From contig JAGVVL010000013.1 in the NCBI GenBank assembly GCA_018287875.1, positions 434,001 through 498,000 of the forward strand: a stretch of DNA of 64,000 nucleotides. The letters are read 5' to 3'. Below the pieces are notes generated by a model. That model ran no database searches. It had not been told where the DNA came from and was given only the letters and a program-made list of their open reading frames with translations. This document shows positions 303 through 54,333 of the stretch, one piece after another; the stretch's first letter is position 1; each line of letters begins with the position of its first letter. The position numbers were made by a program, and so were the translations under genes. The DNA is from Nigrospora sphaerica (lineage: Eukaryota > Ascomycota > Sordariomycetes > Amphisphaeriales > Apiosporaceae).

Positions 303-422
303 AGAGACGACCTTCCTTCCTATTTATTCTTTTCTGGCACCCACTGTTAGTGCCAGCCTGCTATTTACTGCCAAATCCTTAACAATCCTCTAACGGCGCC
401 TCAACGCCAACCCAGAGGCCAA

Positions 423-1790: not shown

Positions 1791-1869
1791 ACAGGTAGCT
1801 TGCTTTATAAGGCAGCCTAACCGTAAGGAACAAGCCAGGGAGGCAACACACTGGAGGAAGCTAGCCCGG

Positions 1870-5880: not shown

Positions 5881-6010
5881 AAAGGGTTGCCATTGGGCTT
5901 GACATGCGAGATATCTCGTGTTCATATAGATAGACTCTCGCACGCCAGATGCCCCTCGGGAGGCGGGACACTGTCCCAGTATGGCGATAATACACACACA
6001 CACACACACA

Positions 6011-6024
6011 CACTGGCTAAAGAC
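6011..6024. repeat. Target-site copy between tandem LINE-A elements
   Basis: The 14 bases CACTGGCTAAAGAC separate the (CA)n tail of LINE-A copy 1 from the 5' end of copy 2. The same sequence borders the pair on the left (289-302) and on the right (12083-12096). Three copies of one target for two elements means they are joined at the same target sequence. Confidence 0.85.
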
Positions 6025-9000
6025 ACCTTCCTTTCTATTTATTCTTTTCTGGCACCCACTGTTAGTGCCAGCCTGCTATTTACTGCCAAATCCTTAACAA
6101 TCCTCCAACGGCGCCTCAACGCCAACCCAGAGGCCAGATGGACTCTGGAACCATTATCGTGATGGCTTCACCTCCTTGTGAGGACACCACCGATGAGGTG
6201 ATGACGGGAAACGATCCTCCCGACCACCTTAAAGAAGCTTCCCACACTTATACTCACAAGAGGAAGCGAACGGGGCAGAATGAGGCCCCTACGAACGGTC
6301 CACTACGAAACTAAAGGAAGGTCGACAACACTCGAGAAGCTTCGACGACGGAAGAAGCCGCGCTGCAGACTGCAAAGGAAGGACACCAATTGGCCACGGA
6401 CGCACTAGCCCCCATCCTGGGCGATATAGATAAGCAACATAATACCCGACGATCGGTACTCACGAAGATCGCTCGTGCTTTAGACAACATCATCGAAGAA
6501 TACCGCGATAAAGATAAGGAAATAGCCACGGAGATTACAAAAGGTTTCATAGCGTTCCTACTAGCTAAGACTAAGGAAACGATTAGTCCCTACCCGAACG
6601 AACACCTCCTATAGGCAAACGGCCTAACCTAAGCTAAGCCCTTTAAGAACCCTACATATAGTTAAGCTAACGTCGCCTAAGTTAGATAGAAGCTAACACC
6701 TTAAGACGGTTTAGATAAGCGAACTAAGGAAACGAATTAATAAAAGGACCTCTAAGTTCTTATAAGGATCCTAAAGGAATATCGAAGCTGGGCATATACT
6801 TAATATAACTTCGCCTTATAATAAGCTGTATATAACACCCTCGACCTATCTTTAGTGGACGTTCCCGATATCCACTATACAGCTACGGGCGTTGCTATCC
6901 GTCTAAGAAATAAAGAAATAAGGGAGGTTCTCCTCCGAAAGAAAGAAGAACTAGCACGAAGCCTCCGAGCTAGCATAGTCGAAGTCCCGGTTACATGGGT
7001 GAACTATGTAATTCCCAGCTACCCGACATAACTCTTTAATATCTTTAGCGAGATATTCGAGACTAATATACTCTTATAAGATAAAGTTCTTATTTAAATA
7101 AGTATAAAGCTAGTAAGTGTACGCTAGTTACGATAGGAACCGATTTTAGGGACGAACAGGAGATCATATATCGTCTCGTTCTTATAAAAAGTTCGTCCGT
7201 TCCGGCTCTTCGGGGCGAGTGGGCCCGCCTGGCTGATTAAGAAACGGACGCCTCCTAGCCGCCACAACCTAGGATGCTAAGGATACCACCCGAGCTAGGT
7301 GTGTACAAGAACCGAAAGGTGTGAAAACTGTAGCGCCCAGCTCTTAATAGGATATAAACACCCGTAGCTATACTAGGAACGCCCACGATATACGAACTGC
7401 TACAGGCCAGCTCTAGCAAGCCACGAGAACTGCCTGGCGAAGCCAGTAGTGAAACACGGAAAGCTAGTACGCCTAACACAAAGCGAGCTTATAAAGATCC
7501 GCTAAACAGGTAGCTTACTCTATAAGGCAGCCCAACTATAAGGAACAAGCTAAAGAAGCAACATATTAAAGGAAGCCAGCCTAAGATTAGACACGCTTAA
7601 TATCGATAGGAGCACTGTCGATACAGCTATAAAGGACCCAACTTATATACCTATAGAAGCCTTAAGAAGACAACCTCAGCTCTCTTAAAAGAATAAGACG
7701 AAGCGTAGCTAACGGAATATCCCACGTATCAACTACTATGAATAGGGAAAGCGATCGAACACACCCGACACGCACTAAGCTAGGGCGATAAGTCCTATAG
7801 GTAGCGCAGGCTAATGTAGGCAAATCGCCGCCGGCATACACGGCCTTACTATAGCAATGCTAGGAGGACTATATAGATGTGATCCTTATATAGGAGCCAG
7901 CCGTTATAAACAACAGCAGGAATAGATTTAACTTGCACCTAGGCTACAGTATTCACGTTCTAGTTGATAACTGGGACAGCATCGCTACTTAGCCCCGGGT
8001 TATAACCTATGTCCGGAAAGACAGAAGGCTGAAGATAAGGTAAAAGCGGCCATAGAAGTCTAGAGACCTCCTATAGCTGGAGATCGACTACATCACCTTA
8101 ATTAATATTTACAGACCCCCACAAGAACTGCTAAGCTAGGCGATAAGACTCCTCTTAAGCCTGCGACCACCGACCTAATACACGGTCGCAGGGGACTTCA
8201 ATGTATAGTACAGCGCTTAGGACCTAGATGTGCCCTAAACTCGGAACGGGGGGATTGAGGTCCACGACTAGGCCATCGCTAACAGACTCAGTTACATTGG
8301 CGAGATAGGGACCTTAACACACGTAGCGGGACGAACTATCGACTTAGCCTTCTTTAACATTCCTTTTATAGTAGTAAAGGTGGACTTAAGGCTTCGGACA
8401 AGAGCAGACCACGAAACAATCCGAATCTTAATTCCCCAAAGCGACCAGACACTAGGGACACGGTTCCGGTACTCGATACTAGATAATAAACTCGAAGCTT
8501 TTACTGGCTTAATCGCGCTCGGTATATAAAACCTTACGCCACTTCTCTTAATACCGATAGCGGATTAACTAAACTAACGGGCAACAGAGATCCTAGCCCT
8601 TTTACGTAGAGCGCTAGAAACAATCGGGAAACAGCCAATTAGGAACGGTCACAATGGGCCATGGTGGACCGACGCCTGCCGGGAAGCCCGGGACACGTTC
8701 CGATAAGCAAGACGACACCATTAAGGGGACTGGAGACACCTAGAAGAACGAAGACACTTCCTCGCGGTTATATAGAGGGAAAAGCGGGAATATTAGTAAC
8801 AGTAAATCGACTTTATCTAGTCCAATTAAGACCTATACAGGGTCGTCTAATGGTATAAAATGCAGCCTGCCTTATAGGCACCTCCTCTAGTTATCGGGGA
8901 TAAGACAATTGAAGACACAGAAAAGAAGGCACACGCCTTACGTAAGGCCCTTCTAAAGCGATTCACGGACGCCGAAGACCTCGAGGACGACCCTCTTAAG

Positions 9001-9540
9001 ATCCCGACGGTACCACGGCGCATCCTGCCCTAGAGCACCCACATATCTAAGGAGGAGCTGACAGCCGCTATAATCGCGGTGAAGAGCACTTCGCTTGGGA
9101 CCAATGGAATCTCGGTACGGCTACTAAAAGTGTGCTAGGAGGCTATTTAAGAACCTGTACGGTCCCTCTTCTAAGCCTGCCTACGGATCGGTCACTACCT
9201 ACGCCTGTTCCGTATAGCAGAGGTCGTGATACTTCGGAAGCCGAATAAGAAAGACCTCTTGAACCCCTGCTTTTAGCGACCAATTACGTTTCTCTCCTGC
9301 CTCGGGAAAGGCTTTAAGAGACTCGTAGCTAAACAAATAGCAAACACTATACTCTTATATAAGGTGGTCAGCCTATAATAGGCCGGCGCCTTACTGATAT
9401 AGGCAGCCTTAGACCTCCTCGCCTACTTAATACACGAGATCGAGCATTCCCTAGAGAATAAAGGCACAGCCTCGATTCTCACCGTGGATATAAAGGGCGT
9501 ATTCGACGCCACCTTTAAAAGGCGGCTTATACTTCGTATA

Positions 9541-9884: not shown

Positions 9885-12096
9885 GTATAAGGCAATAGGG
9901 CTGGGTAACCCAGCTTATTAAGTTTATCGGCTCCTTTATAGAAAAGAGATAAGCACGGATTTAACTCGACGACGTTATAATAAAGCCATAGGCAATCTAA
10001 TACGGCCTACTATAAGGGTCCCCTACCTCCCCTGTCCTCTTCCTTCTATATATTGTAAACATCCTACTCGAGGATATAAGACACCGTTTTAAGTATACAG
10101 ACGATATATGCTTTTATTAAGCTAATAAATCTCTACACGATAATGCACGATAACTAACGAAGGACTTAAACGATGTCCTTAACTAGGGTAAGGAAAATAA
10201 AGTTACTATCGACCTAGATAAAAGCGAGCTGCTCTATTTCACGTATATAAAGAACCCAAGGGAACTCCCTAGCGTGACAGCACGGGACCACAGGCTGACT
10301 ATACACGCCTCGGCCCAGCCTATACGATAACTCGGCGTCTGGTTCAACTCGAAGCTTCGGTTCACGGAGCACGTGAAGAGGAAAGCGGTATAAGCGCGAA
10401 ACGTTGTACGACACCTTCAGAGCCTAGCCAACACCTAGCAAGGCCCTCCGTTAAGAGCCCTCCGGAAGGCCATCTTTACCTGCGTTCTCCTTATCCTCAC
10501 ATACAGGGCCGAGGTATAGTATAAGGGACGCACGAAGACACGAAAGTTCGCTAGCCGACAACATAATATGGAGGTGTCGACACGATAAGAGGCACAAATA
10601 GACGAAATAGATAGGGTCTTAAGGGAGGCCATATAAGCTGTTCTGCCTATATAGAAGACAACACCGATAGCCACGCTATATAGGGACGCGGGTGTCCTAA
10701 CGGTGCGAATCGCATTAAAAGCGGCGTTCTATCGCTTCGGATAACGGCTCTAGTCAATGGACAACAGCCATATGCTAACAGCGTGGACGGCGCTGCGGCC
10801 CTATTTATCAGGCCGCGGCTACGGCTTTTTCCAGCCTACGCGAACCAGGCTTTAAAGAGCGGCCAGACTCCTACCTACCATCCTAAGGCCACAGTACCTC
10901 CTAAAACGTTACACGTTTAAACCGGACCCGCAGAAGGACAAGAAAACAGCGGCGAAGGAGTTCATAGCATGGCAATCAAAGCTTCCCGACACGCACCTCG
11001 TCGTCTTCTCAGACGGGTCAAAAGGACCGGACAAGGCAGTCGGTTAGGGTTTCGCGATCTACAAAAACGGTCGGAAAATAAGATAAGGAAAAGGCCGACT
11101 AGGCCTAGCGGAAGTCTTCGATGGAGAGGCTGTAGGAACATGGTAAGGTCTACGTTAAGCCCACCGGATCAACCCAGGCGCGACAATCCACGTTTACTTA
11201 AATAACACCTCGGTTATCTAAGGCCTCACGGGAACTGTACCGAAAAGCTCGCAAGAAGTTTTCCTCGCCTTTCAGGAGCTAGCGACTATAGCCGACGTCC
11301 GCATTCGATAGGTGCCAGGTTATAAAGGGATTTAAGGGAACGAAAAGGCCGATAAGCTAGCGAAAAAAGAGGCCGCACTCTTAGCACGTCGGTTAGCCTA
11401 AGCTATGTACGCAGGTATAAAACGACTTTGAAAAACAATTATATAAGAACAATTCACGAAGTGGTAGGAGGAGGCCTCTTAAGGCTATAAGCGCTACCGA
11501 GAGCTTGAATTCACCGACGCTACCGTTAAGGTGCTTAAGGAGCTGGACCTCCTTAAACGGATACTCCACAACTTTCTCGCGCTCTAATTAGGATATAGGG
11601 ACTTCGACTAGTACCATAAGAAATTCCAACATCCCCAAAACGACCGATGCACCTGCCGACTATTACGAACACCGGAATATCTAGTCTACTGCCGCAAAAT
11701 AAGAAAGTAACAGGCCTGTTAGCCGAAATTCGACCCCGAACCGAAAACCTTAAAGGAATACTAGCAATAGCTAATACACAACCTAAAGAGGTTCCAGCTT
11801 TTTATAATGTTAACGAAGTATTATAAGGATATATACCTATTATCGGTAGGCCGCAGAAGTTACTTTATATGAAGTCGCAGCTATTCAGACGGAGATAGAT
11901 CCGGGAACGAGCTCGCACGGAGGAGCCACGGAGACGGTTTGACCAAAGGATTGCCTTTAGGCTTGACATGCGAGATATCTCGTGTTCATGTAGATAGGCT
12001 CTCGCACGCCAGATGCCCCTCGGGAGGCGGGACACTGTCCCAGTATGGCGATAATACACACACACACACACATATACATACACACTGGCTAAAGAC

Positions 12097-13345
12097 CGGC
12101 TGCTTTCCACCCATTCCGGATATTCTGGTCGTTAAGGCCGGCTAAGTAAGCTTTCTGATAACAGGTAAGAAAATTCCGCTTACCAACTACTGTTAAGTCC
12201 GTTAGTTAGGTCAGAAATCTAAGCTCTTTTTAATACACCGATTTTAGAGAACTGAAAACGGCTAAATCGAGAGGTTGGAGGATGTGAGGGGTATAAGGGG
12301 ACAAAAAAAGAAGATAAATCGGATAAGAAAAGTATTGAAAAATAAAACCATTTGTTATATAGCTGCTATAGCCGTCTATAACAAGTAGGCAGTACTCGGA
12401 AGGGTCTTTAAGGGCGGTATTTGGGATAAAGACCTTCTCGAGCTACACGAACGCTATTTAATCTATAATCCATCCGTTTTCAGTTACAGTGAACTTCCAG
12501 CCTCTGAATTAGCTTAAATCGAGCGGGAACTATTATTATTAAACTATCTTGCCCTTAAAAATGACCAATAAGGGCAGGGCATGGCCTTAAGTAGAGATGC
12601 ATTCGATAAAGGACGTCTAAATATAAGAACCAGGCTGTTTCTTTCGGACTGAGCGTTTTTCTGAACCTCCAAGTACTAGACCGTTCGATCCAGCACCTTC
12701 TAGGAGTCCTGCTTCGTCTATATTATAACGGTTAGCCGGTTTCACCCTTTGGATCTCCGGCAGTTGAAGATATCGGAACTATATACGAATTACCTCGACT
12801 AAGGCGCCATTAACACGCTGCGAGTCGATAGACCGGCTCTTCTGGACCCGTATAGCTGGGTTCCTGCGTAGGAAGGCCTGCAGCCACCTCTTTCCAAGTG
12901 GCTCGCTATCGCCTTAAGCCCGGAGGATGCGTTCGGCGAACTCCTTGACTTGGGCGTGTGAAGGTGGAAGCCCTAGGGCAGCTTAAGTCAGGATCCAAGT
13001 CGTAAGTAGCTCTTCTTAGACTGGTCTAAACCTCTGCTGGTGTGCGAAGGCTTCTGACCTGCGTTGATGCCCTTTAATTCGGCTCCGAAGTGTTGACCTC
13101 GGAATTCCGTATTCTTAAGCGGATTGCTGGACTGAAGCCCCATTAGCAACGGAGTCGAGAGCACTTTGGAGATCTTGTTCTTCGTATAGCTTCATCTTTA
13201 ATTATTACACTTTTAAATTAAATTATAGGTTATTTGGAGTAAAACTGGCGAAGAAATAAAAGATATTAATTTGGGTGGCTGAGATGGCGGTGAATATTTT
13301 AAGGTGGCGAAAAGTGGGGAGTGGCGAAATGGGGGTCACCTAACT
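12097..13345 (-). mobile_element. Fot1/pogo DNA transposon (Fot-A), 5' part with terminal inverted repeat
   Basis: This is the rest of the element split by LINE-A. Its outer end (13305-13345) carries GTGGCGAAAAGTGGGG and GGGGGTCACCTAACT, matching both ends of the intact copy at 27088-28947, followed by the target dinucleotide TA (13346-13347). The transposase start ATG would be at 13195 on the minus strand. The encoded start, MKLYEEQDLQSAL, is the same as in the intact copy and is a psq-type helix-turn-helix. Several stops follow. Inactive. Confidence 0.85.
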
Positions 13346-13347
13346 TA

Positions 13348-14194: not shown

Positions 14195-15000
14195 TCACCA
14201 GGCCTGCTGCTTTCCGTCGTAACGCCACAGCTTCCCTCCGTGGGACCCCTTAGTACTCTCGTCGATCAGCTTGACGACGCCCTCAACCGAATCCTGAAGC
14301 TTGACCGGCGCCTCTTCCAGACCGAAGATTCTGGCGGCCGCATTGCCACCGTCGGATTGAGAGAATCTGGAGAAAGCGGAGTCAGCGGGAGATGAAAAGG
14401 GCGGGTCGAAGGCAGCCCAACGCACCCAGGGTCAACAACGAAGGCTGTGAGCTTCCCCTCCTCGCCGTTGATGCGCTTGGTGAGCCAGTGCACGGCTGCT
14501 TTGGACGGGCCATACGCTGCGTTGGGGATCGGGGCTTGGTTCTCGAGCACGCCGGCCCCGGAGCCGAGGGTGACCCATTTGGCCGTCGCCGCCGCCGACT
14601 TCCGCAGTAGCGGCAAAGTTGCCTGGTAAAGCCAGACCACGGCAAACGTGTTGGTCTTCAGGTGTGTTTGGAGATCCTGGACCCGGAGCTCGGCGACCGA
14701 GGGGAACAGGAGCGCGATGCCCGCGTTGGCCACGACGATGTCGAGGCGATCGATGCAGTGCTCCGTTCGCAGTTGCTGCACCGCCGCCGCCGCGTCGCCC
14801 TCGACCGTCGAGTCGATCTTTACAACGATGAGCTTAGTGCCCTCGCCCTTGGGAATGTCAAACAGCGCCTTGGACGTCGCGTGGCTGGGGTCCCGATTAC
14901 CCGCAATAACAACGTGGTTGGGCCTCGCAAGGAAGGCTTCAAGGAAACCCCTGCCCAGGCCGCGGTTAGCGCCGGTGATCAAAACTGTTGTGTTCGTCAT
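14195..15000 (-). CDS. Short-chain dehydrogenase/reductase, norsolorinic-acid-ketoreductase-like (two exons)
   Basis: NAD(P)H-dependent cytosolic SDR of 248 residues, expected to reduce a ketone or oxidise an alcohol. Exon 1 is 15000-14426 and exon 2 is 14366-14195. The 59-nt intron starts GTGCGT, contains CTGAC and ends CCAG. Splicing joins ...VDPG to FSQSDGG, restoring the usual SDR C-terminal half. Visible motifs are TGANRGLG (residues 9-16, cofactor site), NAG (92-94), Ser147, and Tyr163 with Lys167 in AAYGPSKAA. Length is normal for a classical SDR. An in-frame ATG at 15015 would add five residues. The closest pattern I recall is the norsolorinic acid ketoreductase-like group, a broad annotation that does not fix the substrate. 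The gene looks intact and free of RIP. Confidence 0.88.
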
Positions 15001-15857
15001 GGCATCTGGCAGCATGAATATTGATATGTTACGAAGATAAGATGGCGTATGAGAACAGTTGTTGTCCCTTTTTATAGGCTACGATGAGGAGGGAAACGCC
15101 GAAGAGGAGGTGCCTCGCCGTATCTATAAGTACGCCAACTGCGAACCCCTGCTTACAAATTCCCGTTACCCTTCCTCGTGCCTTGGGTTATGAGGTCTCG
15201 CTGTACAGCGTCAGCAAGAGAGTTGTTACTCTCGCTGGTCGCTCACGCCAAACGCAAAAAGTAGGCTAGCCGACGCGGACGCCCACTTGTCAAGCCTCCA
15301 GTTGACTGTATTCTGGCCGGATTTGTAATCACGTTACACCAACGTACTGTATCTGGCACGATTTGTCAGCTCGTCACCCCAGACCAGGAACCCGGCCCGA
15401 AATGCCTGGGGCCCCGTGTTGCTGACGCCTGGGCGAAACTCTGACACTCGGGCGGGCCGCCTTATTGGATACGGAATGAATAGAATGGGGGTAACCTGTG
15501 GCTGGTTTGTAGGCTAAAGAAATCACGGTATCTTCACCGAAACAGCGGGTCGCGGCACCTAAAATGTAAAGAGGAAAAGACGATGGCGCTCTTCCTGGGC
15601 GCGGCGTCACTACGACAGCGGCGCTCACATCTAAGCCGGCTGGCAATCAGTAGGCGGTTATTTGGGCTGTCGCAGGGCTGGCCAGGCAGAACCTAGCGGG
15701 GAGGGTTGTACAAGTCTTAAGTCGATCCCCGTCACCATGAAGGCGGTCTTGGTCAGATTACCAAAGGCAAAGGTGGGAGACATCATCGATATAAACATAC
15801 GAGCGAAAAGGGAGGTATTTAGCATTACACGCATCCATTTCCGTAAATTCATTGGCC
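15001..15857. other. Intergenic region between two SDR genes
   Basis: This holds the upstream region of the first SDR gene and the 3' flank of the second; both are on the minus strand. Short open frames occur on both strands, none with recognisable similarity. I see no RNA gene or repeat. Confidence 0.5.
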
Positions 15858-18800
15858 CTACGTCCATCTCGTCGTTCCGCTGTGGCTGATGAAGGAGCCG
15901 GAGAACCCATCGGCGATAGTAGACTGTTCAATGGCGGCCAGAACTCTGTCCGCCCCTGCGGTGGGAGACGCCACTGTATAGCCTGGTGCATACTTGGCGA
16001 ACTTGGCGCCCCATTTTATCTGCTTGGCCTGATCCTCCGGCGAGACTGCGAATGAGAGTGGTTGAGTACTTATAACTTGAGAGAAGTTTGATAATTGACA
16101 GGGACCTCAACGTACGTGGCTCTGGCAGGCCCTCGGTGGTGTCGACGAGGCCCGGACATACGGATAGGAGCAAGATACCTTCCTCCTCGTAGTCGGCGGC
16201 GAGCTTAGATACGGCGAGGCTCACGGCGACTTTGCTCGCCGCATATGGGCCGGCGTTGCTGAGCTTGGCCTCATTGACAAGGCCTAGAAAGCGTCGCGTT
16301 AGAAATTCAAACCCACGGAATGGCCGTCCCGGTAGAAGATTCACGTACCGATGTCGCCCAAGGCGCTCGAGAGGGTGACGATCTTCTTGACGCTGCCCTT
16401 GCGAACCAGGGGCAGAAAGGCGAAGATGGTCTTGACCACGCCGAAAACGTTGACCACCATGTACTTGCGCGCCTCTTTGACCCATTGATCCACCTCGTTC
16501 TCACTAATCGCCTTGGAATTCATAAGAACACTTCTTTCCAAGAGAACGGTTGTAATGTAGCTTACTAAAACAAAAAAAAACTTTTCGAAACCGACCCCAC
16601 ACAGCGATAACTTCACAACCGCGACTCTATAAGCTACCGGATAGCCCGGAAACTATTCCTAGGGCTTCAGTTAGCCTAGAAATGGTCGATTCACCACCCT
16701 CGAGGCAAAGCGCGGGTGGTGGGAGCCGCCATAGGCCCGCCCCACCCCCCGAGCCGTCACCTCCGGACTCAAGAACACCATCGCTAGACAGCATTACAGC
16801 ACCTGGACGCAGTCTAGAGGATATACGCAGCACTATAGATAACTTTAAACGCTTCCTAGCTAGTGAAGTCAACATTGCGGCCTTAGCCGCAGCGGTTTAA
16901 GCCGCTATTCCGGTCTTAAAGACGGCGGCCAAGGAATCGGACAACCAGCCCAGCGTCGAAAGACGTATCAATGCTATCGAGAACACGCTGTAAGCTATTT
17001 ATAAGGAAATCAAAGCTCCTAAGACGTACGCTGCAGCCGCTATTGCCCTTACCGCCGCCCCGGCGCCTAGGGCCCCCTAGGTAGCCAAGACTCTGCCTCC
17101 TCGACACGAATAAGAGGTAACGGTTAAGGCCGCAGGAACTAAAGGCCGCACTTACAAAGAGATCGTACGGAAAGTTAACGCAGCAACAGGTAAATAAACA
17201 GCAATAGCTACACGGAAGCTTCCTAGCGGAGATTATGCTATTACCTATAAGACAGCAAAAGAGAAGCGACAGCTGGAAACCGACCCGGCCTGGACCACCG
17301 AGGCCTTTAAAGAGAACGCCTCTATCTAGAAGAGAAAGATCCTAGTGGTGGCTTATGGCATCAATAAGGAGGCTATAAAGACAAACCAAGGGCAGCTAGG
17401 AGTCCAACTCCGGAACCAGCCTGGCGGCCCTATCGACGTCCTAGAGGCCAAGCTCCCTCGCAAGGCTAAGACCTCGTCTAGGAAGGTCACGGCCCTATAT
17501 ATAGCAGTACCTATAGTGCAATAAGCGGAACAGCTATGCCGAGACGGCCTTATTTGGCAGTATAGCTACTATCTATGCGAACCCTTCGCTGAAGGAGCCC
17601 AGCTTAAGCAGTGCTACCACTGCTACCGTTATGGACATATCGCCTGTGTCTGCCGCCACGCACGTAGGTGCAGGCTCTGCTCTTTAACAAAGCATAACGA
17701 TAAAGAATACCTAGAAGCCGAGAATAAGAGCCGGTACTGCTGTCTAGCATACCGAGGACCACACACCGCGTGGTCTAAGGAGTGTCCAGTCCGTTAAGAG
17801 CAGGTCCAGATCGCTAAGGCTACTTATATCATAAGACCGAAGGGATTCGCACTGCCCTCGCAAGAACCCCCTAAGCCAACAGCCGAGGACTGGTAGACAG
17901 TACAGCCGCGAAAGCGTCGAGCAACTAGCTGCTATACTAGAAACACTAGCAAAGCCTGTAGCAGAACCCACGAAGAGATAGACGATATGGACATCGAAAC
18001 ACCGGAGTTAACACTAAACAGCATCCACGCTCGAACAGCGCTAAAGATCCTACATTGGAACACGCAGAAAAGCAAGAAAGCACAGATACCGGTAGTCGAT
18101 GCTATCTCCGAAGATTACGACATCCTAGCTATCCAAGAGCCCTGGCGAAACCCACACATGCTGACCACCTACTGCCTAAGATCCTCTCCGTACTACCTCC
18201 TATACGCTACCGAAGGGGGTAGAGCATGCATCTATATTAACAAGAAGTTCCCCCCAGCACAGTGGACCTACAAGGCGCAGCTAGATAGATGCCATGTCAC
18301 GATCCAGCTGCCAGACGGTCCCATAACGGTTGTCTGCATATACTCGCCTCCCCTTGGGTCCACCAGCAGATCGGACCTGCCAGCTATCGAAGCCCTCCTT
18401 GCCGAACCCCAGCTAAGACGAACAGTCCTCGTGGGAGACTTCAACGTCCACCACCCTATCTGGGGAGGATATAACGTCCGACCCTATAGGGCAGCTAGCA
18501 AGCTGCTCCAGCTAGCAGAATCCTGGAGACTCCAGCTAATCACACCCCCTGGAACACCGACATAGACACAAAAAGGATACGCAGACTCCACAATCGACCT
18601 AGCCTAGGCCACGGACGATCTCCGGGTCGCCTATAATGGATACGCACCGTACGCAGGGTCCGATCACCTCCCTCAGGTGATACGTGTGGCTGGACCTCAT
18701 ATAGACCGCCAAGATAGACTACGACGCAGCTGGAAAACAGCTGACTATAACCAAGCAAAAGCAGAAGCGGCGCACCTACCACAGCTAGGTCGACTCGAGA

Positions 18801-21800
18801 CACTAGAAGAAATCGATAGCTACGCCGAGACGTTAACTAAGGAGCTAACTCGGATAGCCGACTTAGTTGCCCCCCTCTGCTACTCTAAGGGGAGAGGCAA
18901 GGCCTGGTGGAATCACGACATAAAAAGAGCTATAGAGGAGGAGAGACGAGCCCAGCGAGCATAGCTATCCGACAGGACAGACGCAGCCTGGCGAGCTCTT
19001 CGGTAAGCATCCCTTGCGAAAAAGAAAACGATCCGAGAAGCCAAGACAGCGTCCTGGAGACATATACTCCACGAGGCTTCTAGTCAGCCAGCTAGCATCT
19101 GGAATATTGCGAGATGGGTAAGAACGGAAGGAGTAGCAACGCCGTTACCCCCCGCAGTCCCTACGCTCTACACACCGCGTGGCGAAGTAACGACCCATAA
19201 GGAGAAAACAGAGGCCTTCCGAGAGAGGTTCTATCCCCTTCCTAAAGCTACGCACACTGGCTTCCGAATAACGAACCGGCTCGCAGCGCCTCTCAATATG
19301 GACAGCAAAGTGACAGCAGAACAAGTCCAAGACGTCCTCAATAAAGTAGGCCAGTGGAAGGCGCCTAGGCCAGACCAGCTTCCGAACGGATTCCTTAAAC
19401 GCTTAGGAAATCCCCTCTTCCAGGCCTTGGCCTCCCTAGCGGAAGCATGCTGGCGTATAGGATACTACCCAACAGCGTTCCGCAAAGCAGTGACCGTTAT
19501 CCTCCGGAAACCAGGAAAGCAGTTAAACGAGTACCACTAAGCCAGCGGATGGAGACCTATCGCCCTACTTAACACTATAGGGAAGGTAATCGAGAGCCTA
19601 CTAGCGCAACGGCTAGCTAGCTTCGCCGAGGAGAACGGGCTGCTCCTAGACGAACAGATAGGGATCCGAAAGGGCCGCTCTATAGAAACGGCCCTACAGC
19701 TGCTAACGGACCTGGTCTGTACAGCCTGGAAGCATGGAGGCGCAGCAACCCTTCTATCGCTGGATATCTCAGGCGCTTTCGACTCCGTCGACTATAGAAG
19801 GCTTATTGTTAACCTGCGAGCGCTGAGGGTCCCTATATAGACTATTAGCTGGATCCGAAGCTTCCTATCTAACCGGTCCACGACGCTATTCTTCGACGGC
19901 TAAGAATCGGACGAGATCCCAGTCCTAGCAGGCGTCCCACAGGGCTCACCCCTATCGCCTATCCTCTTCTGCCTTTATACAGCCGGTCTCTATAAGGCTC
20001 TCCGCGCTATACCAGGGATAGCTACTATAGCCTTCGCAGACGACACGAACCTCGTGGGCTTCGGCTTAAACCCCGAGCAGACCTGCGAGCGGCTGGGAGC
20101 CGCTTATAGGATCTATAAAGAATGGGCAGTCAGCCACGGCATAACCTTCGCAGTCCAGAAATATCACCTAGTCCACTTCTCTCGAAGACGGAAAGGTCCG
20201 GACACGAAGATAGCCTTAGAAGGCCACGAAATCGAACTAGAAGACTCCTGCCGCGTCCTTGGCATCCAGGTGGATAGACGTCTCCGCTGGGACGTCCATA
20301 TCCAGTCGATATCGAAGAAGATGGCGACACAGGTCTATGCCTTAAACCGCATAGCCGGCTTTACGTGGGGCGCGTCTCTTCAACGAGCCCGCCAAGTCTA
20401 CATAGCGGTTATACGGTCTGCGATAGGCTATGGAGCTTCAGAGTGGCACCGCCAAATCTCGAAAAATAGAGCTAAGGCACTTAACGACGTCTAAACAGAG
20501 TGCCTCCGAAAGGTCACAGGAGCTTTCAAAGCCACGGCTACCGTAATACTAAAAACAGAAGCTTACGTGTCCCCCTTAAACATGTGGCTTAACAGAAGGG
20601 TGGCGGCGTCGGAAGAGAGGCTCCAACAGCCGCGCATCGCATCACTTATCCAAGCTAGATGCGACATGGCAGCTAGGTGGATCCTAACAAGGCCGACTCG
20701 ACGGCGCAGACCGACAGGTCCGGAAGTCCCCGACCGCAAGAGATGGCTAGACACGTGGCTAGCTGGAGAGTCGGCAAGTAAGGCCGAGGAGAGAGACTGG
20801 CTCCAGAGATGGCAGCAAAGCCAGACACTGCGGCAAATCCAGACATCGCGAGCTCCAGCAATAATAACAAAAAAGCCTCCAGATAAACACGTCCTTAATC
20901 TCCATAAAAGACTTCACAAGGCAGAGAGCTCGATCCTCGTCTAAGCGAGGACCGGCAAGATTGGGCTGCGAGACTTCCTTTTTAAGCGCAGGGTTCCAGG
21001 CTTCGACAGCCCATGGTGTGACTGCAGTCAGGGTAGGGAGACCATCCGGCATATCCTCGTTTTCTGCCCACGGGAAAGAGAAAGACGAGATCATCTCGTC
21101 CAAGCTCTAGGAGGACCGGTAGACACGGATAGGATGCTCGACACCCCCGGAAAAGCAGGAATTATCGCGAGATAGCTACTCCGCTCGGGCAGGCTGGACA
21201 TGTTCCAGCTGGCGAATCAACTCATTAGCTAGGAAGCGGGCGCGCTAAGCCCGATCTCGGTATAGCAGGTCAAAGAGCAGATAAAAGCGGTGCGACGCAG
21301 CGGAACCTAGGTTTTTCACCCGGCCGGACGTTAGCCCGGAACGGTTTTCCTAGGCTAAAATGCGCAGGGGGTCCTCATGGCCTAGATAGGTCGCTAGGTG
21401 TAAGAACAATAATAATAATAATAATAATGTAGCTTACTACTCGCTCGAGGACTTGAGAGCCCTCGAGTTATCAGTGTAGGCGGCGTAATTGATGAGCACG
21501 TCTAGTCCGTGGCGCCCCAGTAGTATGTCGACTTCCGCCACCGCGTGACTGATAGTCTCGTCGTCGGTGATGTCAGCCTCGACGAGGTGCACGTGGCTCA
21601 GGCTGTGGGACTGGAGGCGCGCCTCAGTCGCACGCTTGTCGCGCACCAAGCCCACAACCGTATTGGCGGGACTGGCGGCGAGGCGCTGCATGAAGGCATA
21701 CTGTGGCGTGGTTCAGCGTCTAACTGCGGGCACTGGCACTGGGGATTTCTTTTCCGTGAGGTTTTCGCCGGAAAGGGTTCATGGGCAGTAGGCACTAGCC

Positions 21801-22005
21801 TCCGCCTGCGGCCGCACTCGGTCCCGCGGGACGTCACCGTCGCTCTCAGTCTCGGACAGAAATCACACCTGGAATTCAAGTCCTCGGTGAGGTTCCCACT
21901 GCGTTTCCCCTGCTTCAATATCTTTTCGTGGGCAGGTTCTCAGAAGAAGGGAGAATAACTCACTCCCAAGCCTCGACTGGCTCCGGTGACTAGGTAGGTC
22001 GGCAT
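15858..22005 (-). CDS. Short-chain dehydrogenase/reductase interrupted by a LINE in an intron (five exons)
   Basis: Proposed exons are 22005-21964, 21700-21441, 16503-16349, 16283-16116 and 16045-15858, giving a continuous 270-residue classical SDR. Motifs are TGASRGLG (7-14), an NYAA in place of NNAG (85-88), Asn119, Ser147, and Tyr166 with Lys170 in PYAASK. Introns 1, 3 and 4 are 263, 65 and 70 nt with GT-AG ends; intron 3 contains CTAAC. Intron 2 would be 65 nt (GTAGTAAG...GATTAG). A 4.86-kb LINE-B sits inside it with duplicated target sequence, so the intron is now about 4.9 kb. No stop or frameshift is seen in any exon. A second LINE-B lies 80 bp upstream of the ATG. Function on NAD(P)(H) and an unknown substrate is inferred from the family. 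The gene could be silenced, or spliced with a giant intron. The intron 2 boundaries are the least certain. Confidence 0.75.
16553..16567. repeat. Left target-site duplication of LINE-B copy 1
   Basis: TAATGTAGCTTACTA occurs here and again at 21425-21439, right after the (AAT)n tail. Eleven bases (GTAGCTTACTA) are unambiguous; the first four may belong to the tail. This proves that the LINE between them is an insertion into a once-continuous sequence. Confidence 0.9.
16682..17989 (+). pseudogene. LINE-B copy 1 ORF1
   Basis: Degraded RNA-binding ORF1 protein starting MVDSPPSRQSAGG. A proline-rich N-terminus and an Ala-rich helical middle are followed by three CCHC knuckles (CYHCYRYGH..., CRLC..., then a third with one Cys lost). 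At least ten in-frame stops are present. Start and motif order match the better copy at 30926. Confidence 0.75.
17990..21400 (+). pseudogene. LINE-B copy 1 ORF2 (endonuclease and RT)
   Basis: Endonuclease start ILHWNTQKSKKAQIP, then AIQEPW, GDFNVHHPIWGGYN and GSDHLP. RT follows with WRPIALLNT, LLSLDISGAFDS and FADDTNLVGFG. The C-terminal zinc motif lies near 21020-21075. Long stretches remain open (for example 20054-20494), but stops at Trp and Gln codons break every domain. Typical of a LINE polymerase that has been through RIP. Confidence 0.8.
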
Positions 22006-22096
22006 AGTATAGGCCAGAGATGAAACTGAACCGTGAAGAGACTTATAATGGTGAGGGAGAGGGTAGTTCGCTCAACATCCCAAGAAAGCTCGGATG

Positions 22097-25000
22097 TTAT
22101 TATTATTATTATTATTCTTACACCTAGCGACCTATCTAGGCCATGAGGACCCCCTGCGCATCTTAGCCTAGGAAAACCGTTCCGGGCTAACGTCCGGCCG
22201 GGTGAAAAACCTAGGTTCCGCTGCGTCGTACCGCTTCTATCTGCTCTTTGACTTGCCATACCGAGATCGGGCTTAGCGCGCCCGCTTCCTAGCTGATAAG
22301 TTGATTCGCTAGCTATAAAATGTCCAGCCTTCCGGAGCGGAGTAGCTATCTTGCGATAATTCCTGCTTTTCCGGGGGTGTCGAGCATCCTGTCCGTGTCT
22401 ACCGGTCCTCCTAAAGCTTAGACGAGATGATCTCGTCTTTCTCTTTCCCGTGGGCAGAAAACGAGGATATACCGGACAGTCTCCCTGCCCTGACTGCAGA
22501 CACACCAGGGGCTGTCGAAACCTAGGACCCTACGCTTAAAAAGGAAGTCTCGCAGCCTAATCTTACTAGTCCTCGCTTAAACGAGGATAGAGCTCTCGGC
22601 CTTATGGAGTCCCTTATAGAGCTTAAGGATATGCTTATTTAGCGGTATCTTAGTTACTGCTAGGGTTTATACTGTTCGATTTTATTACACTTATTACTAT
22701 CTTGAAAGCTAGTCTCCCTCCTCAGCCTTATATGCTAAGTCTCTAGCTAGCCATTTGTCTAGCTACCTCTTACAATCGGGAGCGTCGGGGCCTTTCGGTC
22801 TACACCAGCGAGTCGGTCTTGTTAGGATCTATTTAGCTGCGCTATCGCATCTCGCTTAGATAAGTGATGCGATACGCGGCTGTTAGAGCCTCTCTTCCGA
22901 TGCCGCCACCCTTCTGTTAAGCCACATGTTTAAGGGGGACACGTAAGCTTCTGTTTTTAGTATTACGGTAGCCGTGGCTTTGAAAGCTCCTGTGACCTTT
23001 CGGAGGCACTCTGTTTAGACGTCGTTAAGTGCCTTAGCTCTATTTTTCGAGATTTGGCGGTGCCACTCTGAAGCTCCATAGCCTATCGCAGACTGTACGA
23101 CGGCTGTATAGACTTGGCGGGCTCGCTGGAGAGACGCGCCCTATATCGAGCCGGCTATCTGGTTTAGAGTATAGACCTGCGTCGCCATTTTCTTCGATAT
23201 CGACTGGATATGGACGTCCTAGCGGAGACGTCTATCCACCTGGATGCTAAGGACGCGGCAAGAGTCTTCTAGTTCGATTTCGTGACCTTTTAAAGCTATC
23301 TTCGTATCCGGACTTTTCCGTCTTTAAGAAAAGTGGACTAGGTGATATTTCTATACTGCGAAGGTCATGCTGTAGCTGACTGCCTATTCCTTACAGATCC
23401 TGTGAGCGGCTTCTAGCTGCTCGCAGGTCTGCTTAGGGTTTAAACTGAAGCCCACGAGGTTTATGTTATCTATGAAGGCTATAATAGCTATCCTTAATAT
23501 AGCGCGGAGAGCCTTATAAAGACCGGCTATATAGAGGCAGAAGAGGATAGGCGATAAAGGTGAGCCCTGTAGGACGCTTGCCGGGACTAGGATATTGTCC
23601 GATTCCTAGCTGTCGAAGAATAGTATAGTGGACTAGTTAAATAGGAAGCTTCGGATTTAGCTAATAGTCTATATAGGAACCCTTAGCACTCGTAGGTTAG
23701 CGAGGAGCCTTCTATAGTCGACGGAGTCGAAAGCGCCTGAGATATCCAGCGATAAAAAGGTTGCTACACCTCTATGTTTCTAGGCTATGCAGACTAGGTC
23801 CGTTAGCAACTGTAAGGCCGTTTCCGTAAAGCGGCCTTTCTGGTTACCTATTTGTTTATCCGGGAGCAGTCCGTTCTCTTCGGTAAAGTTAGCTAGCTGT
23901 TACGCTAGTAGGCTCTCGATCGCTTTCCCTATAGTGTTAAGCAGCGCGATAGGTCTCTATCCGCCAGCTTAGTGGTACTCCCTTGGCTGCTTTCCTGGCT
24001 TCCGGAGGATAACGGTGACTGCTTTATGGAACGCTCTTAGATAGTATCCTATACGCTAGCACGCTTCCGTTAGGGAGGCCAAGGCCTGGAAGAGGGGCTT
24101 TCCTAGGTGTTTAAGAAATCCGTTCGGAAGCTGGTCTAGTCTAGGTGCCTTCCACTGGCCTGCCTTAGTGAGGACGTCTTGGACTTGTTCTGCTGTCACC
24201 TTGCTGTCTATATCGAGAGGCGCTGCGAGCCGGTTCGTTATTCGGAAGCCAGTGTACGTAGCCTTAAGGAGGGGATAGAACCTGTCTCGGAAGGCCTCTG
24301 TTTTCTCCTTATAGGTCGTTGCTTTACCACGCGGTGTATAGAGCGTAGGGACTGCTGGGGGTAATAGCGGTGCTGCTCTTTCCGTTCTTACCTATCTCGC
24401 AATGTTCCAGATGCCAGCTGGCTAACTAGAAGCCTTATAGAGCATATATCTCTAGGACGCTGTCTTAGCTTCTCGGATCGTTTTCTTTTTCGTAAGCGAT
24501 GCTTGCCGAAGGGCTCGCCAGGCTACGTCTGTCCTATCGGATAGCCATACTTGCTAGGCTCGTCTCTCCTCCTCTATAGCTCTTTTTATATCGTGGTTCC
24601 ACTAAGCCTTACCTCTCCCCTTAAAGTGGCGGAGGGGGGCAACTAGGTCGGCTATCCGAGTTAACTCCTTAGTTAACGTCTCGGTGTAGCTATTAATTTC
24701 TTCTAGTGTCTCGAGTTGCCCTGGCTATAGTAGGTGTGCCGCTTTTGCCTTCGCCTGGTTATAGTCAGCTGTTTTTTAGCTGCGTCGTGGCTTGTCTTAA
24801 CGGTCTATATAGGGTCCAGCTACACGTATCACCTAGGGGAGGTGATCGGATCCAGTAAATAGGGCATACCTATCGTAGGCAGCTCGGAGATTGTCCGTGG
24901 CCCACGCTAAGTCGATTGTGGAGTCCATACACCCTCTTCGAGTCCATATCGGTGTTCCAAAGGGAGTGATCAGCTAGAGTCTCCAGGATTTTGCTAGCTG

Positions 25001-26745
25001 GAGTAGCTTGTTAGCTGCATTATAGGGTCGGACGTTATATCCTCCCTAGACGGGGTGGTGGATATTGAAGTCTCCTACGAGGACTGTTCGTCTTAGCTAA
25101 GGTTCAATATAGAGGGCTTCGATAGCAGGCAGGTCCAATCTGTTAGTGCACCTAAAGGGAGGTGAGTATATACAGACGACTGTTATAAGGCCGTCTAATA
25201 GTTGGATTATAATACGACACCTATTTAGCTGCACCTTATATATCCACTGTATTAAGGTGTACTTCTTATTAATATAAATATATACCCTACCTCCCTTAGT
25301 TATGTAAAATAGGTAGTATAAAGAGGATCTTAAGTAGTAGGTAGTCGGTATATATAGGTTTCGCTAGGGTTCTTAGATAGCTAGGATATTATACTCTTTA
25401 GAGATGGCATCGACTACTAGGATCTATGCTTTCTTACTTTTCTACGTGTTCCAGTGTAGGATCCTTAGCGCTGTCATAGTCGAGCATAAATGCTGTTAAG
25501 TGTTAACTCCGGTGTTTCGATGTCTATGTTGTCTGTCTCTTCGTGGGTTCTACTGCGGGCTCTGCCAGTGCTTCTAGTGCGGCAGCTGGTTGCTCGACGC
25601 TTTCGCGGCTGTACTATCTGCCAGTCCTCGGCTGTTAGCTTAAGGGGTTCTTACAAGGGCAGTGCGAACCCCTTCGGTCTCGTAATATAAGTAGCCTTGG
25701 CGATCTGGACCTGCTCTTGGCGGACTGGACACTCCTTAGACCACGTAGTGTGTAGTCCTCGGTATGCTAGACAGCAGTACTGGCTTTTATTCTCGGCTTC
25801 TGGGTATTCTTTATCGTTATACTTTATTAAAGAGCAGTGCCTGCACCTGCATACGTGGCGGCAAACACGGGCGATATGTCCATAACAGTAGCAGTGGTAG
25901 TATTGCTTAAGCTGTGCTCCTTTAATAAAGGGCTCACATAGATAGTAGCCATACTGCTAAATAAGGCCGTCTCGGTATAGCTATTCCGCTTGTTAAACCG
26001 TGGGTACTGCAATATATAAGGCCGTGACCTTCCTAGACGAGGTTTTGGCGTTGCGAGGGAGCTTGGCCTCTAGGACGTCGATAGGGCCGCCGGGCTGGTT
26101 CCGGAGTTGGACTTCTAGCTGCCCTTGGTTTGTCTTAATGGCCTCCTTGTTGATGCCATGAGCCACCACTAGGATCTTTCTCTTCTGGATAGAGGCGTTC
26201 TCTTTAAAGGCCTCGGTGGTCTAGGCCTGGTCGGTTTTTAGCTGTCGCTTCTCTTCTGCTGTCTTGCAGGTAATAGCATAGTCTCTGCTAGGAAGCTTCC
26301 ATGCGGCTATTACTGTTTCTCTGCCTGTTGCTGCGTTAACTTTCCACACGATCTCTTCGTAGGTGCGGCCTTCAGTTCCTGCGGCCTTAACCGTTACCTC
26401 CCGTTCGTGTCAAGGAGGCAGAGTCTTAGCTACCTAGGGGGCCCTAGGCGCCGAGGCGGCGGTAAGGGCAGTAGCAGCTGCAGCGTACGTCTTCGGAGCT
26501 TTAATTTCCTTATAAATAGCTTGCAGCGTGTTCTCGATAGCATTGATACGTCTTTCGACGATGGGCTGGTTGTCCGATTCCTTGGCCGCCGTCTCTAGGA
26601 CCGGAATGGCGGCTTGAACTGCTGCGGCCAAGGCCGCAATGTTTACTTCACCAGCTAGGAAGCGTTTAAAGTCGTCTATAGTGCTGCGTATATCCTCTGG
26701 ACTGCGTCCAGGTGCTGTAATGCTGTCTGGCGATGGTGTTCTTGA
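22097..26745 (-). mobile_element. LINE-B copy 2, 5'-truncated, RIP-degraded
   Basis: Minus-strand LINE-B with its (AAT)n tail at 22097 and its 5' break at 26745. Relative to copy 1 it lacks about the first 210 bp. A 12-bp duplication, AAAGCTCGGATG, lies at 22085-22096 and 26746-26757. 5' truncation with a target duplication is the normal product of target-primed reverse transcription. Degraded ORF1 (zinc knuckles about 25700-25910) and ORF2 (RT about 23300-24200) can be followed on the minus strand. Heavy loss of CpA and TpG, many stops. Confidence 0.88.
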
Positions 26746-26757
26746 AAAGCTCGGATG

Positions 26758-27087
26758 AGTATTTTATAGTGAATGAGTAGCGGCATACAAATGGCGGCTT
26801 CCTGTGGAGTTCACCTGTAGAATTAATTTGTGTTTAGAAGCCTTCGACACGTCGTCTAGCTAACAGGGGGCAATAGATATCAGTTAAGCCGAGTCTAAGT
26901 TTTAAGACCGGTGCGCGGGTTTCCAATTTAGTCGAAAATCTGACATCTTACCGAAAACGTTCCAGCGCTGAACATTCGAGGTCCTGACCCCGCTAGGATG
27001 CATATTACTCATGCTGACCTTTCATAGTCAGCGGCCGAGCCGTACAACGAAGTATAGCCGGCAGGGTGTGACATATGCCGTGTGATA
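26758..27087. other. Short host segment between LINE-B copy 2 and a pogo element
   Basis: About 330 bp of ordinary-composition DNA. Before both insertions it would have adjoined the 5' flank of the SDR gene (22006-22096). It may therefore hold part of that gene's original promoter. No coding frame, RNA gene or repeat is seen. Confidence 0.5.
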
Positions 27088-28947
27088 AGTTAGGTGACCC
27101 CCATTTCGCCACCCCCCACTTTTCGCCACCTTAAAATATTCACCGCCATCCCAACCACCCAAATTAATATCTTTTATTTCTTCGCCAGTTTTACTCCAAA
27201 TAACCTATAATTTAATTTAGAAGTGTAATAATTAAAGATGAAGCTATACGAAGAACAAGATCTCCAAAGTGCTCTCGATTCCGTCGCTAATGGGGCTTCA
27301 GTCCAGCAATCCGCTCAAGAATACGGAATTCCGAGGTCAACACTTCGGAGCCGAATTAAAGGGCATCAACGCAGGTCAGAAGCCTTCGCACACCAGCAGA
27401 GGCTTAGACTAGTCCAAGAAGAGCTACTTACGACTTGGATCCTAACCTAAGCTGCCCTAGGGCTTCCACCTTCACACGCCCAAGTTAAGGAGTTCGCCGA
27501 ACGCATCCTCCGGGCTTAAGGCGATAGCGAGCCACTCGGAAAGAGGTGGCTGCAGGCCTTCCTATACAGGAACCCAGCTGTACGGGTCTAGAAGAGCTGG
27601 TCTATCGACTCGCAGCGTGTTAATAGCGCCTCAGTCGAGGTAATTCGCCTATAGTTCCGATATCTTCAGCTGCCGGAGATCTAGAGGGTGAAACCGGCTA
27701 ACCACCATAATATGGACGAAGCAGGACTCCTAGAAGGTGCTGGATCGAACGGTCTAGTACTTGGAGGTTCGGAAAAACGCTCAGTCTAAAAGAAGCAGCC
27801 TAGTTCTCGTGCTTAAACCTTCTTTATCGAATGTATCTCTACTTAAGGCCATGCCCTGCCCCTATTGGTCATTTTCAAGGGCAAGATAGTTCAATAGCAA
27901 TGGTTCCCGCTCGATTTAAGCCAATTCAGAGGCTGGAAGTTCACTGTAACCGAAAACGGATGGATTACAGATTAAACAGCGCTCGAGTGGCTCGAGAAGG
28001 TCTTCATCCCGAATACCGCCCCTAAGGACCCTTCCGAGTACCGCCTACTCGTTATGAACGGCTATGGCAGCTATATAACAACTGATTTTATATTTCAGTG
28101 CTTCTCTTATCGGATTCATTTTCTTTTTTTGCCCCCTTATACCTCTCATGTCCTTTAACCTCTCGATTTAGCCGTTTTCAGTTCTTTAAAATCGGCGTAC
28201 CGGAAAGAGCTTGAATTTCTGACCCAACTAACGGACTTAACGGTAGTTAGTAAGCGGAATTTTCTTGCCTGCTATTAGAAGGCTCGCTTAGCTGGCCTTA
28301 CCGACTAGAATATCCGGAATGGGTGGAAAGCAGCTAGTCTCTGGCCAGTAAGTATAGCTAAACCACTTTTAAGCCGGAATTTGGTTTAAAATATACACCA
28401 AACAACACCCAATACGACAAAATCGAAGGAATCCCACTTGAATAAGGTCTTCTCGACACCTCCAAAGAGATCCGGTACTTCTATAGTAGTTTGGTTTACT
28501 CTAAAGAAGATGTCGGACTTTAAAGACCAAGTGCAGCTTTCGAACCAGCTAGCGGAACACTTAACTATATAACGACTACCCTTCCGGAAGATCCAAAAGG
28601 CCTTTGATAAGAAGAATATCCAATTAGCTACTGCTTAAAGGCAAATTCAAGCCCTCGAAGCTAAGATTGAGACTATTAGACCAAAGAAAAGGAAGAAAGT
28701 GGATTTGAGCTTAAATTCGAAGTTCGCGAATATCGAAGACATCCACCGAGCTCAATTAGCAGTCGGAGAGGCTGAAAGTGGTCTAGATAAAGAGAGCGAT
28801 AGCGAAAGCCTAAGTGAGGCTGGTTTTTGTATCATGGTTCTTATAAAATAAGAATATATAGTCGGTTGAAGTAATAAGACTGATTTTGATGCGGTTAAGC
28901 TAAGGGTGGCGAAAAGTGGGGGGTGGCAAAATGGGGGTCACCTAACT
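27088..28947 (+). mobile_element. Full-length Fot1/pogo DNA transposon (Fot-B), 1860 bp
   Basis: Terminal inverted repeats of about 40 bp (starting AGTTAGGTGACCCCCATTTC) bound this element. A TA duplication flanks them (27086-27087 and 28948-28949), as expected for Tc1/mariner-pogo elements. The interior holds a single transposase frame, 27238-28851. It is the reference for the split copy at 1-302 and 12097-13345. Confidence 0.92.
27238..28851 (+). pseudogene. Pogo/Fot1 transposase, broken by stops
   Basis: A 537-codon frame starts MKLYEEQDLQSALDSV, with a psq-type helix-turn-helix (GASVQQSAQEYGIPRSTLRSR). A CENP-B-like second DNA-binding region follows, then a DDE catalytic domain (first acid region NMDEAGLLEG near 27711), and a basic, coiled C-terminus with RPKKRKK. 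No frameshift is needed, but at least ten stops (mostly TAG/TAA at Trp or Gln) lie within it. The intact enzyme would cut at the inverted repeats and insert at TA. The point-mutation pattern points to RIP. Confidence 0.82.
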
Positions 28948-30813: not shown

Positions 30814-30925
30814 CCGGGGCAAAACTTTTCGAAACCGACTCCACACGGCGATAACTTCACAACCACGACTCTGAAACCCACCGGATAGCCCGGAAACAGT
30901 TCCTAGGGCCCCAATTACCCTAGAA

Positions 30926-32290
30926 ATGGTCGATTCACCACCCTCGAGGCAAAGCGCGGGTGGTGAGAGCCTCCAACGGCCCGCCCCACCGCTTGAGCTA
31001 TCGCCTCCGGACTCGAGAACGCCATCGCCAAGCAGCCTCACAGCACCTAGACCTGGTCTAGATGCCATACGCAGCGCGGTCAACAGCTTCAAACGCTTCC
31101 TAGCCGGTGAACCGGATATGGCAGCTATAGCCGCAGCCACCCAGACCGCCATTCCGATCCTAGAGGCGGCCCAGACAGCCGAGGGGCCAAACAGCTGCAC
31201 TAGCATCGAAAAGCGCATTAACGCTATCGAGAACACGCTACAGGCTATCCATAAAGACATTAAAGCCCCTAAGACGTACGCAGCTGCTGCTTCCACTATA
31301 ACTGCTACCCCCGCACCTAGAGCCCCCCAGACAGCCAAGGCACTGCCTCCACGGCAGGAACGAGAGATCACAGTTAAGGCCGCAGAGGTAGAAGGACGCA
31401 CCTACGCAGAGATCGTACGCAAGATCAACGCCGCCGCAGGGAGAGAGGCAGCAGTAGCAGCTCGGAAGCTCCCCAGTGGAGACTACGCTGTTACATGCAA
31501 AACAACAGCAGAGAAACAGGCCTTAGAAGCCGACCTAGCCTGGACCGCCGAGGCCTTCGGAGAGAACGCCTCTATCCAGAAGAGAAAGATCCTGGTGGTA
31601 GCCCATGGCATCAACAAGGAAGCCGCAGAAACGAACCTAGGACAGCTAGGAACCCAGCTTCGGAACCAACCAGGAGGCCCTATCGACGTCCTGGAAGCAA
31701 AGCTCCCTCGCAACGCCAAGACGTCGTCCAGGAAGGTCACGACCCTATATATCGCCGTCGCTACTGTTCAGCAAGCAGAGCAGCTATGCCGAGACGGCCT
31801 TATCTGACAGTACGGGTACTATCCATGTGAGCCTTTCGCCGAAGGAGCGCAACTTAAGCAGTGCTACCACTGCTATCGATACGGACATATTGCCCGAGTC
31901 TGCCGTCACGCACGAAGGTGCGGACTCTGCTCTTCGACTAAGCATAACGATAAAGAATGCCCCGAAACGGAGAACCAAAGCCGATACTACTGTCCTGCAT
32001 GTCGAGGACCACACACGGCGTGGTCTAAGGACTGCCCAGTCCGCCAGGAGCAGGCCCAGATCGCCAAGGCTGCTTATATCACGAGACCGAAGGGATTCGC
32101 ACTGCCCCCGCAAGAACCCCCTAAGCCAACAGCCGAAGACTGGCAGACAGTACAGCCGCGGAAGCGTCGAGCAACCAGCTGCCGTACTAGAAGCACTGGC
32201 AGAGCCCGCAGCAGAACCCACGAAGCGATAGACGACATGGATATCGAAACGCCGGAATCTACGCAGGACAGCATCCACGCCCGCCAATGA
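30926..32290 (+). pseudogene. LINE-B copy 3 ORF1 (RNA-binding gag-like protein)
   Basis: 454 codons with a single nonsense codon at 31805-31807, where other copies have TGG (Trp), so one TGG to TGA change broke it. Order of parts: Pro-rich N-terminus (1-60), Ala-rich helical region (60-150), a basic region with ETNLGQLGTQLRNQPGG (about 230-260), then three CCHC knuckles: CYHCYRYGHIARVC, CGLCSSTKHNDKEC and CPACRGPHTAWSKDC. The Arg-rich C-terminus ends QPRKRRATSCRTR and on to the stop. It would coat LINE RNA. Its stop overlaps the ORF2 start by four bases (ATGA). Confidence 0.85.
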
Positions 32291-35654: not shown

Positions 35655-35676
35655 GAATAATAATAATAATAATAAT

Positions 35677-46224: not shown

Positions 46225-46337
46225 GAGGGAAAAAACTTTTTCGAAACCGACCCCACACAGCGATAACTTCACAACCAAGACTTTAGAAGCTACCGGATAG
46301 CCCGGAAACTGTTCCTAAGGCTTCATTTAGCCTAGAA

Positions 46338-51070: not shown

Positions 51071-51106
51071 TAAATATATAAATAATAAATAAATAGTATA
51101 GCCTAC

Positions 51107-53152: not shown

Positions 53153-53157
53153 GCTAT

Positions 53158-54319: not shown

Positions 54320-54333
54320 CCAGCTACGAGTAT

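Follow-up and report, generated by a model that had tools for sequence, protein, structure and literature searches.

The question raised by this locus is whether a gene, into one of whose introns a non-LTR retrotransposon (LINE) has inserted, is still kept with a giant intron, or whether the insertion is recent relative to the decay of the exons. These were the two options left by the first-pass annotation, which had described a LINE in an intron of an otherwise intact SDR gene of Nigrospora sphaerica. We investigated the locus in a window of 64,000 nucleotides (C5:434001-498000), which is a part of the 51.6 Mb assembly of 33 contigs. The coordinates of the features are collected in Table 1.

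Table 1. Features of the SDR gene and of the two LINE copies, in positions of the window
Feature	Position	Strand	Description
SDR exon 1	21964..22005	-	glycine motif TGASRGLG
SDR intron 1	21701..21963	-	263 nt, GTGAGT...CACAG, phase 0
SDR exon 2	21438..21700	-	contains INYAAY; ends SSSE plus two split-codon bases (62-nt intron model)
Target duplication of copy 1, exon 2 side	21425..21439		15 bp; minus sense TA/GTAAGCTACATTA; covers last two exon bases and donor 1 (21437)
Candidate new mini-intron	21382..21437	-	donor 1 to antisense LINE tail; CTTAC branch-like site; CTAG acceptors at 44 and 56 nt
LINE copy 1	16568..21424	+	4857 bp, antisense to the SDR, in intron 2 between exons 2 and 3
Target duplication of copy 1, far side	16553..16567		15/15 match; minus sense TTTTA/GTAAGCTACATTA; contains donor 2 (16565)
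SDR native intron 2 (most likely)	16504..16565	-	62 nt, GTAAGC...GATTAG, phase 2, complete, downstream of LINE copy 1
SDR exon 3	16349..16503	-	active-site Asn of NVFG, Ser of TLSS
SDR intron 3	16284..16348	-	65 nt, GTACGT...CTAG, CTAAC branch-like site
SDR exon 4	16116..16283	-	YAASK
SDR intron 4	16046..16115	-	70 nt, GTACGT...CGCAG
SDR exon 5	15858..16045	-	with stop codon TAG
LINE copy 2	22097..26745	-	5'-truncated, in opposite orientation to copy 1, lies upstream of the SDR start codon
Target duplication of copy 2	22085..22096		AAAGCTCGGATG, perfect 12 bp; other copy 26746-26757

The SDR gene and the two LINE insertions

One classical SDR lies on the minus strand at 15858-22005 in five exon pieces, which are all free of stop codons, as had been noted before, and have GT-AG splice sites. 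Each piece, when aligned singly, falls in the proper order on a protein named fluoren-9-ol dehydrogenase from Lasiodiplodia theobromae (P0001, 273 aa) and on a virK-named protein (P0002), although of exon 3 only residues 16-49 of 50 align with the latter. This confirms that the two halves of the SDR flank the LINE. The identity to P0001 is 54.5% over the exon pieces, and in a profile scan of the exon 4 frame that frame matched PF00106 with 27.4 bits (cut-off 26.6). The glycine motif, the N-S-Y-K tetrad and a similar C-terminal end are common to this gene, P0001 and the virK-named group; the gene differs from them by a Tyr in the place of the second Asn of the NNAG motif and by the LINE which interrupts it. 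By these likenesses the gene is a classical SDR (Pfam PF00106/PF13561), for which the fungal group of P0001 and the virK-named proteins is the closest known.

The size of about 4.86 kb reported earlier for the element in intron 2 agrees with our data. Copy 1 aligns end to end with other copies in the genome. Its likeness to non-LTR retrotransposons consists in the endonuclease (PF14529/PF03372) and RT (PF00078) matches, the (TAA)n tail, the target duplications and the full-length copies elsewhere in the genome. Unlike in intact LINEs, however, the frames of copy 1 are broken by stops, and the two domains are found in separate open pieces (two of the three open pieces scanned gave a match, one domain each). 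We take the clade of the element to be perhaps Tad-like.

The sequence TAATGTAGCTTACTA is identical in 15 of 15 positions between 16553-16567 and 21425-21439. The length of the target duplication is nevertheless better stated as 11-15 bp, as was done before, because the (TAA)n tail may supply a part of the match. The overlap of the duplication with the 5' splice site was likewise described correctly. The exact wording of the repeat has to be changed: GTAGTAAG, which was believed to exist in two copies, occurs only once, the far copy reads TTTTAGTAAGC, and TAGTAAGC is common to both. Transposon insertions in introns or splice sites can inactivate genes. The insertion described here likewise struck a donor and duplicated the target, and the antisense element contains a candidate acceptor, but here the duplication instead preserves a whole native mini-intron beside the element, and the splicing is a predicted one. 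A target preference for splice donors was looked for by eye at the junctions of 12 copies and no common target was seen; several of these copies are without a clear duplication, and the rows of L016 and L018 stop short of the true 3' end.

Copy 2, another insertion of the same family, has left 79 bp of unique sequence (22006-22084) between the start codon of the SDR and its own target duplication, and the original upstream region of the gene now begins 4.7 kb off. The insertion of copy 2 would have removed the promoter of the SDR. Together with the lost Asn of the NNAG motif, which is discussed below, this hit near the start codon does not allow us to maintain that the gene is otherwise intact. 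Copies 1 and 2, about 650 bp apart, make up a long inverted repeat that would yield hairpin RNA if it were read through.

The region around the SDR is dense in repeats. Further copies or pieces of the LINE family are found in the window at 30821-35674, 46230-51084, 37815-38905 and 53153-54320, with 79-91% identity to copy 1, and other repeats pair at 89-92% identity (286-3825 with 6008-9540; 3821-6024 with 9885-12096; 12078-13347 with 27086-28355, inverted). DNA-transposon-like pieces lie at 39068-39832 and 36166-36633 (HTH_Tnp_Tc3_2 and DDE_1 matches), and the AT skew is positive over much of the first 12 kb. Downstream of the broken gene its strand carries a second SDR, an open frame of 270 codons at 14266-15078. 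The open frame of 1508 codons at 54696-59222 resembles the alpha subunit of fatty acid synthase (66% to Diaporthe amygdali, no match above 66% being found among 7993 candidates scored) and reaches up to 73% GC, compared with about 50% over most of the window. Related fungal ketoreductases act in polyketide pathways, and since this fatty acid synthase-like frame is 33 kb away, a role of the SDR as a toxin gene was considered. We rejected it: to judge by their names, the homologs listed (the best 120 of 855) are for the most part uncharacterised NAD(P)-binding proteins from a wide range of fungi, and we saw nothing that links the SDR with a toxin.

The native intron and the predicted splicing

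The exons had previously been joined through an intron of 65 nt into a product of 270 residues. Our comparison leads to a different border. Among the best candidates scored in this genome, the paralog closest to the SDR lies on contig C1 and has 39% and 41% identity to the two SDR halves. By reading, this paralog has a GT-AG intron of phase 2 at the corresponding place, and another intron at the position of intron 1. Counted on the translations, it has 12 residues from NAAL to the split codon and 17 from the split codon to the active-site Asn; the SDR has 12 and 17 with the GTAAGC donor, and 11 and 17 with the GTAGTA donor. Additionally, the GTAAGC donor has a G at position +5, as do the three other introns of the gene (GTGAGT, GTACGT, GTACGT). 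Therefore, native intron 2 is most likely 62 nt long, with donors at 21437 and 16565 and its acceptor end at 16504, and the product under this model would be of 271 residues. Judging by the sequence, intron 2 is older than the LINE insertion.

Both donors read GTAAGC; an intron that starts at donor 1 would span 4934 nt, and one that starts at donor 2 spans 62 nt. As the donor was duplicated, a complete 62-nt native intron survives downstream of the LINE (16565-16504). A survey of 42 eukaryotes reports that animals and plants exceed fungi in introns longer than 200 bp, and concludes that intron definition is the primary mode of fungal splicing (PMC2397502). Since fungi splice mainly in this way, LINE copy 1 is expected to stay in the SDR transcript. 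Donor 1 is intact, and thus could still serve the long splicing over 4934 nt.

Donor 1 could also be spliced to a nearer place. The antisense tail of the LINE offers candidate acceptors 44, 56 and 131 nt from donor 1, with CTTAC or CTAAC branch-like sites. An acceptor by the same rule is found within 80 nt at 58 of the 318 GT positions of the antisense LINE, and therefore, at this background rate, the acceptors in the tail are suggestive only. If donor 1 is not spliced, the frame gives an E followed by two stops, and the three candidate splices into the LINE tail lead to a stop after 6, 0 and 0 codons. All four translated readings stop at most 7 codons past the end of exon 2, and the catalytic Ser, Tyr and Lys would be missing from these products. 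One could argue that a single insertion has made two complete mini-introns here, between which the LINE forms a huge internal exon, because the duplication carries a donor and the antisense tail carries a branch-like site and acceptors. We regard this as rather improbable; if the arrangement were family-wide, the tail would be a splice trap or a source of new introns.

Conservation of the protein, RIP and age of the insertion

The statement that all catalytic motifs are present does not hold. In the alignment of 110 homologs of 250-285 aa (from 122, with P0003 omitted by choice and 11 for length; the homolog search listed the best 120 of 855 matches) the glycine motif TGxxxGxG is intact in the SDR, its three columns holding G in all 110 homologs too, and the Asn-Ser-Tyr-Lys tetrad is intact at conserved columns. 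The NNAG motif is not: its second Asn, which is found in 110 of 110 aligned homologs, is a Tyr in the SDR (INYAAY), while the first Asn is found in 99 of 110. In the literature the motif is given a role in stabilising the central sheet, and Rv2509 is described as carrying an ANAG variant which retains the second Asn (PMC7065075). Another paper assigns to NNAG a role in NAD binding and in the proton relay, and finds it in 86.3% of one SDR set (PMC10579966), and thus NNAG is not universal among SDRs.

At the columns conserved to at least 90% the SDR deviates 8 times out of 61, where the median of the homologs is 2 and 5 of 110 homologs reach at least 8; none of these eight columns belongs to columns 284-307, in which the end of exon 4 overlaps the start of exon 5. 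At 95% conservation it deviates at 3 of 38 columns (homolog median 0; 10 of 110 deviate as often or more). Homologs that are comparable in mean identity number only 4. As these show 4, 7, 9 and 13 deviations, divergence alone could explain the 8 of the SDR, though not the loss of the Asn. In the relative-rate comparison the SDR has about 35 unique residues to 18 of P0001, as a mean of 72 outgroups which are not independent of one another; the counts are about 35 to 19 with P0004, 41 to 23 with P0008 and 26 to 20 with P0021. The acceleration of the SDR is mild and varies with the comparison chosen. By reading, the 8 deviations can all be accounted for without RIP-type changes, and therefore some of them may predate the insertion. 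No close relative of the fungus was seen in the protein set searched: exons 3-5 found 3 matches there, the best of 54%, and the fatty acid synthase-like frame none above 66%.

The LINE was said to be heavily mutated by RIP. The indices TA/AT and (CA+TG)/(AC+GT), for which the usual thresholds are 0.89 and 1.03, are 1.44 and 0.94 in copy 1 and 1.63 and 0.81 in copy 2. By these values RIP is present in copy 1, but only to a moderate degree. The CpA changes on the side of copy 1 against the side of the other copy are 104 to 25 for L010, and 73 to 86 for L013, 78 to 89 for L018 and 60 to 139 for copy 2; these opposing counts imply that the copies vary in the extent of RIP. The possibility that RIP has leaked into the exons was also considered. 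The pooled indices of the SDR exons speak against it, as 0.76 and 1.14 are not RIP-like (0.47 and 1.21 in the SDR frame 14266-15078, 0.54 and 1.13 in the fatty acid synthase-like frame). However, single exons vary (2.00 and 0.80 in exon 1, 1.00 and 1.00 in exon 2, 1.00 and 1.21 in exon 4), and the non-coding flanks give 1.16 and 0.98 and 1.04 and 1.02, so that a slight leakage may have taken place.

Transversions between copy 1 and the other LINE copies amount to 1.4-2.3% (values for 11 of the 12 copies, one strand being searched; there is none for L014, and that for L017 covers a piece of only 1390 bases). With an assumed background of 2:1 transitions to transversions this corresponds to a divergence of no more than about 2% in each lineage after the separation of the nearest copies compared, which is an upper bound on the age of the insertion. 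The chance that 804 coding bases stay free of stops without selection is 0.60-0.68 at 2% and 0.28-0.38 at 5%, indels being uncounted. Thus at this age the open exons are no sign of selection, and of the two options an insertion that is recent relative to exon decay agrees better with the data than a giant intron kept by selection.

The probable state of the gene

Taken together, the data make it probable that the SDR gene is inactive and in early decay, after two LINEs of one family have hit its donor and the vicinity of its start, and with the Asn of NNAG lost. A once ordinary five-exon fungal SDR has taken both elements, the one antisense at the donor of intron 2 and the other near the start codon. 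The insertion of copy 1 duplicated the donor and retained the complete 62-nt native intron on its far side. The spliceosome would mostly use this mini-intron, and perhaps a new tail intron of 44 or 56 nt, so the LINE would stay in the RNA and translation would be expected not to reach the catalytic Ser, Tyr and Lys. The loss of the Asn and the remoteness of the upstream region would add to the inactivity.

One could assume instead that selection keeps the gene, with donor 1 joined to the native acceptor across the 4934-nt intron, a full-length SDR as the product, and transcription starting in the 79 bp or in copy 2. The open exons, the canonical splice sites and the intact donor 1 agree with such a gene. 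Nevertheless, it would have to do without a residue that all 110 aligned homologs have and with a LINE near its ATG, and to splice in a manner contrary to the intron definition which prevails in fungi according to the survey (PMC2397502), while the 62-nt native intron rivals for the same acceptor. Open frames are moreover expected at the estimated age regardless of selection, and thus it is not likely that the gene is kept.

The order of events could also have been a different one: the SDR was already relaxed or specialised, NNAG was altered before the LINEs came, and the insertions struck an unimportant gene. The change from Asn to Tyr and the other deviations need, by reading, no RIP-type change, the nearest homolog among the matches listed is only 54.5% identical, and 4-13 deviations occur also in the four homologs with a comparable mean identity. 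But the Asn of NNAG is retained in 110 of 110 aligned homologs, the divergent ones included, which leaves this order of events a small chance only. Far less credible still is a shorter product of exons 3-5, transcribed from within the LINE and starting at an ATG inside the native intron. An in-frame ATG (MNSKAIS...) is indeed located upstream of exon 3, but such a product would be devoid of the cofactor-binding half.

The most likely reading is a decaying gene, for which the locus provides a clean, otherwise ordinary snapshot of how repeats erode a gene in a repeat-rich region. As evidence for selection, reading frames that stay open next to a RIP-affected repeat are weak. The locus also pits a native intron of 62 nt against one of 4934 nt, with one acceptor in common. 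If the arrangement of two mini-introns were true and family-wide, the tail of this LINE would inactivate genes or seed introns wherever it lands antisense at a donor.
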